A DNA stretch of 64,000 nucleotides from Chryseobacterium taichungense. GTDB lineage: Bacteria; Bacteroidota; Bacteroidia; Flavobacteriales; Weeksellaceae. The stretch is from NCBI RefSeq assembly GCF_900109935.1, contig NZ_FOBV01000002.1:620001-684000 (forward strand), given 5' to 3'. The translations under genes and the position numbers were made by a program. Under the pieces are notes generated by a model. That model was given only the letters and a program-made list of their open reading frames with translations, was not told where the DNA came from and did not search any database. The stretch's first letter is position 1; each line of letters starts with the position of its first letter. Positions 56,043 through 57,777 of the stretch are shown here, piece after piece.

Positions 56043-56146
56043 CGTCAGTTCGAGAAGGTTTTTCGAAATGTAATGGAGAAAACCGTATCGAGAACCTGTA
56101 ATGAAAACCTCCATTCTCGATACAAAATTCTTTCAGAATTTCACTC
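56043..56146. repeat. Palindromic repeat, left copy, split by the IS110 insertion
   Basis: CGTCAGTTCGAG starts a unit also found complete at 57373-57484. This copy stops at TTCACTC (56140-56146); its missing end GAATTGACG is found at 57334-57342, directly after the IS. The unit's ends are inverse complements (CGTCAGTTCGAGT and ACTCGAATTGACG), so it is a long imperfect palindrome of about 112 bp. Confidence 0.85.
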
Positions 56147-56149
56147 CTT

Positions 56150-56157
56150 TAGATTTG
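56150..56157 (+). promoter_or_regulatory. -7 half-promoter at the left edge of the IS110 element
   Basis: TAGATTTG fits TAnnTTTG. In the integrated state no TTG lies 20 nt upstream. In a circle, the TTG at 57314-57316 would lie exactly 20 nt upstream (17 nt of right end + 3 nt of left end). Confidence 0.7.
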
Positions 56158-56164
56158 TAAAAGA

Positions 56165-56330
56165 AATCAATACATTTATTAACAAGAGAAAAGTGTTTAA
56201 GTAAACTAAGATTCACTCAGAGAAAAACTCATAGTTCGATTAAGACTTAAACACTTTCTTATCAAAAACTCAGATAGAAATTCGGGATTGGAGCCCATTA
56301 TTAAGGAGTTGAGATGATGATAAGTTTCTC
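56165..56330 (+). ncRNA. Predicted IS110 bridge RNA
   Basis: Hairpin 1: AAAGTGTTTAAGT (56190-56202) pairs perfectly with 56245-56257. Its loop holds TTCACTC (56212-56218), identical to the left target, and TTCGA (56235-56239), the inverse complement of TCGAA across the core and right target. Hairpin 2: CTTATCA (56258-56264) pairs with 56318-56324. Its loop holds ATAGAAAT (56274-56281), identical to the element's right end (57325-57332), and AAGGA (56303-56307), the inverse complement of core TC plus left end CTT. This is the target-loop/donor-loop layout of bridge RNAs. RNA ends are estimates. Confidence 0.75.
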
Positions 56331-56350
56331 TTTATTAATCAAACAAATTT

Positions 56351-57328
56351 ATGGAAAAAGTTTTTATTGGAATTGACATTAGTAAGCTAACTCTGGATGT
56401 TTTTGTTAACAGTTGCTCTAAAACACAACATTATCAAATTAAAAATTGTTCAAAAGCGATTAAAAAGTTTTTTAAAAGCTTCTCCAATGATGCAAATACC
56501 GTTGTAGGCATGGAAAATACAGGAAGATACAATTTTGAACTGTACGAAGTTTTAAGTAGTATGAACATTCCGGTTTTTGTTATAAACCCACTTCATTTAA
56601 AGAAAAGCATCGGTCTTTTAAGAGGTAAAAATGATAAATTGGACAGTCAAAGAATCTGTGCGTTTTTGGAGAAAAATTACATGGATCTACAACCGTGGAT
56701 CCCTAAATCCTTGGATATTCAAAAAATAAACTTACTTAATACGGAACGCAGACACAGAGTGAAAATAAGAGCAGGTTTATTGAGACAGATGAAAGATTTA
56801 AGCTTTCTTAAAAATCATACAGATAAGGAAATTATAAAGCTTAACAAGCAATTGATTTTACTTTTAGATAAACAGATTAAAACAATTGAAAAAAAGATTG
56901 TAGAGATTATTGAATCAAACACAGAACTAAAGGATCAATATATAAGAATCCAGACCGTTCCGGGTGTTGGGAGAGTATTGGCCACTATGCTCATTGTTAA
57001 GACCAATGGGTTTACGGAAATTCAATCGGCAAGAAAGATGGCTTGCTATTCTGGTGTAGTTCCATTTGATCATCGCTCTGGTTCGTCAATTTATTATAAA
57101 CCCAGAATCTCTACAATGGCTGATAAAGAACTAAAAAAGATTTTACATTTAGCTGCCTTGAGTTCCATAAGATTAAAGAATGATCTCGCTTTATATTTTC
57201 AAAGAAAAGTTTTAGAAGGGAAGAATAAGATGTCTGTTTTAAATGCAATTAGAAATAAAATCATACACAGAGTTTATGCTTTGATAAAAAATAATTCTGT
57301 GTATGAAAATAACTTGCAGATGTCATAG
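56351..57328 (+). CDS. IS110-family transposase (bridge-RNA-guided recombinase)
   Basis: A 325-residue protein. The N-terminal RuvC-like DEDD domain shows Asp in FIGIDISKLTLDVF (residue 9), Glu in VVGMENTGRYNFELY, and two Asp in LRGKNDKLDSQRIC. A coiled-coil follows (DKQIKTIEKKIVEIIESN). The C-terminal Tnp domain has QTVPGVGRVLATMLIV and the catalytic-Ser region GVVPFDHRSGSSIYYKPRIS. Full length and apparently intact. The stop codon lies within the segment matched by the left donor guide. Confidence 0.92.
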   Translation: MEKVFIGIDISKLTLDVFVNSCSKTQHYQIKNCSKAIKKFFKSFSNDANTVVGMENTGRYNFELYEVLSSMNIPVFVINPLHLKKSIGLLRGKNDKLDSQRICAFLEKNYMDLQPWIPKSLDIQKINLLNTERRHRVKIRAGLLRQMKDLSFLKNHTDKEIIKLNKQLILLLDKQIKTIEKKIVEIIESNTELKDQYIRIQTVPGVGRVLATMLIVKTNGFTEIQSARKMACYSGVVPFDHRSGSSIYYKPRISTMADKELKKILHLAALSSIRLKNDLALYFQRKVLEGKNKMSVLNAIRNKIIHRVYALIKNNSVYENNLQMS

Positions 57329-57372
57329 AAATCGAATTGACGTCATGTTTATCATCAATTCTCTAATCAGCA

Positions 57373-57484
57373 CGTCAGTTCGAGTAGGTTTTTCGAAATG
57401 TAATGGAGAAAACCGTATCGAGAACCTGTAATGAAAACCTCCATTTCCGATACAAATTCTTTCAGAATTTCACTCGAATTGACG
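57373..57484. repeat. Palindromic repeat, intact right copy
   Basis: 112-bp unit from CGTCAGTTCGAGT to ACTCGAATTGACG, nearly identical to the left copy at 56043. In the uninterrupted chromosome the two copies would be 30 bp apart. Internal complementary words (TAATGGAG/CTCCATT; TATCG/CGATA) suggest an RNA or cruciform fold. Confidence 0.85.
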
Positions 57485-57558: not shown

Positions 57559-57625
57559 ATTTTAAAACTTTGCTCCTTTTTTAATTATCATTTTACAGCA
57601 AATGGCGTGAAGTCATGATTTTAAT

Positions 57626-57777
57626 TTGCTCCGGAAGGAGCAATATCTGTGTAGACCTTCGTCAGTTTCTTGTAATATGAGAACTCCGGAGGAGTTCTAT
57701 CTCATTATAGCACACCTCCGGCGTGCTTGTATGTTCTATCGTTTTTTCTGCTACACAGATATTGCTCATACTGAGCA
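57626..57777. repeat. Structured repeat, diverged fourth copy
   Basis: GGAGCAATATCTGTGTAG (57637-57654) pairs with 57751-57767 (17 of 18). Inner hairpins GAACTCCGGAGGAGTTC and AGCACACCTCCGGCGTGCT keep pairing despite base changes against the copies at 41.3-42.0 kb, that is, compensatory change. The final hairpin is degenerate (CTCATACTGAG). It lies between convergent gene ends, as the other copies do. Confidence 0.88.

Follow-up and report, generated by a model that had tools for sequence, protein, structure and literature searches.

We are highly confident that positions 56147–57333 of the window (the whole 64,000-nucleotide stretch of Chryseobacterium taichungense DNA analysed here) hold an IS110-group insertion sequence that lies in a REP-like palindrome and whose left end encodes a two-loop bridge RNA, with a recombinase, a promoter completed in the circle and guided insertion around the dinucleotide TC. 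The basis observed here comprises the anatomy of the element, the covariation of guides with targets and with donor ends, the fold, the catalytic residues, an empty site, and the motif and spacing of the promoter. Excision, the circle, cleavage chemistry, RNA binding and transcription from the circle are carried over from IS621. On that model, the left end would yield a bridge RNA of ~170 nt in which an outer stem closes two hairpins. Loop 1 would pair with both sides of the target (the bottom strand at TTCACTC, the top strand at TC-GAATT) and loop 2 with the element's own ends (the right end at ATAGAAAT, the left end at TC-CTT). The recombinase would excise the element as a circle with its right end joined to its left end, and this joining would complete a Bacteroidota housekeeping promoter, TTG-N20-TAnnTTTG, from which the bridge RNA could be transcribed. 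The RNA-protein complex would then insert this circle around TC, in the repeat to which it is guided.

The element, its insertion site and its recombinase

The element is 1187 bp long, with CTTTAG as its first and GAAATC as its last bases. It interrupts a 113-bp REP-like palindrome, of which the left half lies at 56043–56146 and the rest, the right target GAATTGACG, at 57334–57342, as placed by alignment of the joined flanks. The left target TTCACTC (56140–56146, +) ends in the core TC (56145–56146) and is identical to the loop-1 segment at 56212–56218. An intact copy of the palindrome, which constitutes an unoccupied target (TTTCACTC/GAATTGACG), lies 30 bp to the right of the interrupted one (57373–57484) and includes TTTCACTCGAATTGACG. 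The joined flanks are identical to it at 109 of 113 positions, with TTTCACTC-GAATTGACG unbroken. Because this intact copy matches the joined flanks, the empty site is directly visible and the bounds 56147–57333 are confirmed, as they had been given in the original prediction, which had also correctly placed the target TTCACTC/GAA inside a palindromic repeat. The core dinucleotide is TC, present at both junctions (the right copy, at the element's end, is 57332–57333, +) and once in the empty site.

The non-coding left end that carries the bridge RNA is 204 nt long (56147–56350, +), as delimited by the empty site and an alignment of ten related left ends. The right end extends 5 nt past the stop codon, and the longest inverted repeat measures 5 bp. 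This combination of a long left end and a short right end without a long subterminal inverted repeat places the element in the IS110 group as opposed to IS1111. The genome has a single intact copy of the element. Elsewhere in it (L084, G000:C21:84000-86000, positions 580–1090), what is left of a related right end (ATTATAGAAATAGAACTGACG) adjoins a REP palindrome, and the two are separated by degenerate tandem copies of ~21 bp (CAATCAACCATTCCGAAGAG). A further large intergenic inverted repeat (CGGAAGGAGCAATATCTGTGTAG ... CTACACAGATATTGCTC) occupies 57625–57770 of the window, a short way to the right of the intact palindrome.

The gene at 56351–57328 (+) encodes a 325-aa IS110 recombinase (DEDD transposase) with catalytic residues D9, E55, D95, D98 and S243. 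Pfam assigned it PF01548 (RuvC-like DEDD) and PF02371 (C-terminal Tnp) at 65.6 and 64.2 bits, both above the cut-offs, and NCBIfam assigned it NF033542 (IS110 RNA-guided transposase) at 165.6 bits against a cut-off of 140. The protein aligns with the solved recombinases IS621 (8wt6) and ISCro4 (9t56), its five catalytic residues falling opposite D11, E60, D102, D105 and S241 of IS621 (residues as given in PMC11208158). Judged by domains and aligned catalytic residues, it belongs to IS110, in agreement with the transposase originally proposed.

Fold and guide segments of the predicted bridge RNA

Folding of the left end, a check suggested with the original prediction, gave −34.4 kcal/mol (z −2.1) and both of the hairpins that had been predicted, enclosed in an outer closing stem that had not. 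The predicted bridge RNA would span 56162–56335 (+), with its start placed from the -7 promoter box at -12 to -5 (the box position being that of PMC9723704) and its end just past the outer stem. The 5' arm of that stem (56184–56190, +) pairs with 56326–56332. Hairpin 1, with the target-binding loop, covers 56191–56256 (+; stem 56191–56202/56245–56256), and hairpin 2, with the donor-binding loop, covers 56258–56324 (+; helices 5 and 6). In an alignment of ten left ends, both sides changed with pairing kept in 17 of the 40 pairs (for example, GTGTTTAAGT/ACTTAAACAC versus GCATTTAGTT/AACTAAATGC). Two-sided changes affected 4/7 pairs of the outer stem, 5/12 stem pairs of hairpin 1 and 6/12 pairs of hairpin 2. 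Of the cells, 95.7% were paired, compared to 33–50% when the partners were slid by 1–3 columns. The secondary structure of the bridge RNA is thus conserved among relatives. A search of Rfam with 56147–56350 and eight related loci returned no relevant match.

Loop 1 carries the left target guide TTCACTC (56212–56218, +), equal to the left target at 56140–56146, and the right target guide AGTTCGA (56233–56239, +), whose GA pairs with the core TC. The handshake position TT (56240–56241) follows the latter and matches the donor AA. Loop 2 carries the left donor guide ATAGAAAT (56274–56281, +), which equals the left donor sequence at the right end (57325–57332, +, overlapping the stop codon at 57326–57328), and the right donor guide AAGGA (56303–56307, +), the complement of the core TC plus CTT. 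All four segments had been predicted where we find them and in the right order, and the two donor guides of loop 2 were borne out in full. For the right target guide, given as TTCGA (56235–56239), the position held and the length did not, the segment really being ~7 nt. The matches had also been called independent; all four are present, and their independence is incomplete, the core TC being counted in several. The guide AGTTCGA predicts GAACT, and the actual right target GAATT pairs at the fourth base only by G-U wobble. When the left end was shuffled by dinucleotides, the left target, right target, left donor and right donor guides arose singly with frequencies of 0.020, 0.23, 0.030 and 0.52, all four arose together in 5e-5 of the shuffles, and the set in its order arose in 0/20,000. 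The two 5-mer guides are therefore weak singly, and the combination of all four is strong.

Relatives were taken from 147 genomes, 173 genomes of the genus and named records (Chryseobacterium sp. Leaf201, C. taeanense, C. balustinum, Soonwooa, Faecalibacter and a Flavobacterium MAG). From these, 21 element families in four clades yielded loops and flanks, with a sufficiently long left flank in 20, and cognate and swapped guide-flank pairs were scored with equal freedom. Covariation of the loop-1 segments with the flanks, named in the original prediction as its test, was found: the left guide tracks the left flank and the right guide the right flank across families. In clade A, the closest, cognate pairs scored 12.6 and swapped pairs 9.1, with 1 of 200,000 permutations as good. 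For the pooled families, no permutation in 200,000 was as good on the left side or on the right side, and the corresponding counts were 2/120 in clade C and 2/24 in clade B; all these figures treat families as independent, and shared ancestry makes that independence overstated. Right guides and right targets changed together as AGTTC/GAACT, ACTTC/GAAGT, ATTTC/GAAAT, ATTCC/GGAAT and TGGCT/AGCCA. Pairing with the left target was imperfect in some families, and in genome G183 the matching stretch was shifted by two. In a tree, two ACTTC elements were split and an AGTTC element was nested beside one of them, a pattern that points, on weak branches, to repeated change between GAAC and GAAG. A plasmid collection and distant blastn gave no match.

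The idea that the matches are chance or repeat leftovers in AT-rich DNA, and the left end merely a regulatory leader of the transposase, draws on the frequency of both 5-mers in shuffled left ends and has next to no probability, being already refuted by covariation: the ordered set never arose by shuffling, the guides track flanks in 20 families and stem pairs change on both sides. We also regard it as very improbable that the protein or the palindrome structure does the targeting and that the loop resembles the target because the element inhabits that repeat family. Many of the examined copies do sit in palindromic or interspersed repeats. However, transposases 91–92% identical to that of the window have targets and guides that differ at the same base (GAAC versus GAAG), and the order and strand sense of the left and right guide segments are those that pairing predicts. 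Target 12-mers were commoner than reversed controls; the 12-mer YGTCGAAATGAC has 16 copies in G183, to whose element it is the guided target, and at most one in seven other genomes. IS621 prefers REP repeats (PMC11208160), and since REP targeting is a known habit of that element, the repeat targeting seen here is not new in kind.

The donor loop tracks the element ends between clades (ATAGAAAT, TTAGAAT, ATAGAATG, TAGTAAT and ACAGATC). Between clades, 4 of 100,000 permutations matched left donor guides to right ends as well as the true pairing did; for right donor guides and left ends the count was 189 of 100,000, a weaker statistical support. With the handshake guide position taken from IS621, the core complement and the two following loop-1 bases match the donor in 19/21 families, and the match of the handshake bases holds although the core varies from TC to AC to GC between families. 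Loop 1 thus pairs with both target sides and loop 2 with both donor ends, which is the two-loop arrangement of a bridge RNA, and the interpretation originally given to the left end is supported by guides that track flanks, donor segments that track ends and a fold that covaries. A handshake of loop 2 (AAGGAG-T against target AC) was considered and rejected; several clade A targets fit it, and G183 and clades B and D do not. In two relatives from G023 (L071 and L072), the left junction has the core AC and the right junction the core TC, with the donor loop AAGGT, not AAGGA; here the readings of the left and right core seem to have diverged.

A predicted promoter divided between the two ends

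Bacteroidota housekeeping promoters have TTTG at -33 and TAnnTTTG at -7 (PMC2483708; PMC9723704). The window element has a -7 box of this type, TAGATTTG, at its extreme left end (56150–56157, +) and a -33 element, TTG, in its right end (57314–57316, +), which comes to lie 20 nt upstream of the box only with the ends joined. This division of a Bacteroidota-type promoter between the right and left ends goes beyond the original prediction. Of the 14 families in clades A and B, 12 have the exact TAnnTTTG (G023 in one of its two copies), and the box is one base off in the remaining families of these clades and in clades C and D. At the joined ends, TTG stands exactly 20 nt upstream in 43/43 copies from 21 families, and the flank supplies TTG at the same place in 0/42 integrated left ends; elements of G131 and G059, whose boundaries are ambiguous, are excluded from this count. 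Spacing was examined in 25 families, and length changes in the two ends compensate. In elements of clades C and D, a left part shorter by one base goes with a right part longer by one, and in a distant element from G032 the spacing is split 16+4, the sum again being 20. Elements from G060 have a spacing of 20 with the AT core counted once and of 22 as scored.

The split promoter could conceivably be a by-product, TTG being kept because it encodes the transposase C-terminus and TAnnTTTG because it belongs to the donor site, and we think this unlikely. In clade A the TTG does fall within the last codons of the gene, and the donor guide also binds the first left-end bases. In clade D, however, the TTG sits in a non-coding right end with the stop codon upstream, donor pairing does not reach the TTTG of the box, and the one-base left-end shift of clades C and D is offset by the one-base shift at the right. 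We consider it likely, on the motif and its spacing, that in Bacteroidota the excised circle is the sole template for transcription of IS110 bridge RNAs, via a phylum-specific housekeeping promoter, TTG-N20-TAnnTTTG, that integration cuts in two, and that selection keeps the 20-nt spacing as the cut point moves (17+3, 18+2, 16+4). As the promoter halves are joined only at the circle junction, the guide RNA is predicted to be made mainly from the excised circle. IS621 likewise rebuilds a sigma-70 promoter at its circle junction (PMC11208160, PMC11208158), which makes the Bacteroidota split promoter its phylum-specific counterpart. No assembled right-left junction was found in 173 genomes of the genus, the circle being expected to be transient; three one-mismatch matches were not junction-like in appearance.

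Comparison with known elements and atypical relatives

Among the closest known systems, IS621 of Escherichia coli (PMC11208160, PMC11208158; PDB 8wt6) shares with the window element a DEDD recombinase with five identical catalytic residues, a long left end carrying a bridge RNA with the target loop before the donor loop, a 2-bp core, handshake bases, a target inside REP repeats and a promoter rebuilt at the circle junction. The two differ in that the proteins align at just 60 bits (E 1.8e-15), the core is CT in IS621 and TC in the window element, IS621 has a separate 5' stem-loop whereas the window element has an outer stem closing both hairpins, and the rebuilt promoter is of the sigma-70 type in IS621 and of the Bacteroidota type here. 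ISCro4 (PDB 9t56), compared by protein only, belongs to the same protein family and is, among solved structures, the best match by sequence (E 6.4e-18, residues 3–316). In ISEc21 and the other seekRNA elements (PMC11187229), which are also of the IS110 family but enterobacterial, the target is selected by an RNA that derives from non-coding sequence upstream. In IS1111-type elements (PMC11187229), the RNA lies downstream and there are long subterminal inverted repeats, which are absent here.

The window element is thus a typical bridge-RNA element, with a known mechanism, REP preference included, in a new host lineage; our search of the open-access literature found no paper on a Chryseobacterium or Bacteroidota bridge RNA. 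With evidence from across the family, the relatives bring an AT-rich Bacteroidota lineage into the range of bridge-RNA recombination, and their guides form a natural series of changes that match the palindromic repeats specific to each species. The split promoter, phylum-specific in type, offers a simple, testable account that would tie the RNA to excision of the element. Recombinases of this kind may be suitable for genome editing in Bacteroidota.

Several relatives depart from this anatomy. One locus (L101, G220:C41, 1398–1644) has a left end with bridge-RNA hairpins, no transposase and inverted copies of GCTTCGACAAGCTCCTTTAGATTTGCAAA at its bounds, and resembles a bridge-RNA-only, MITE-like element within a palindrome. 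Another (L099, G225:C27, from ~485) is a remnant with hairpin 1 of the left end only, followed by AAACTC joined directly to GAAGTGACG; it could reflect recombination at a cryptic CTC within the element's own left end. At L154 (G183:C1:1058500-1060500), ~15 nt resembling the element's own left end open the right flank, after which the target repeat resumes, like the footprint of a tandem insertion. In Faecalibacter macacae, a related element (L169, 74% identity) has a longest transposase frame of just 179 aa, with the left end and its guides apparently intact.
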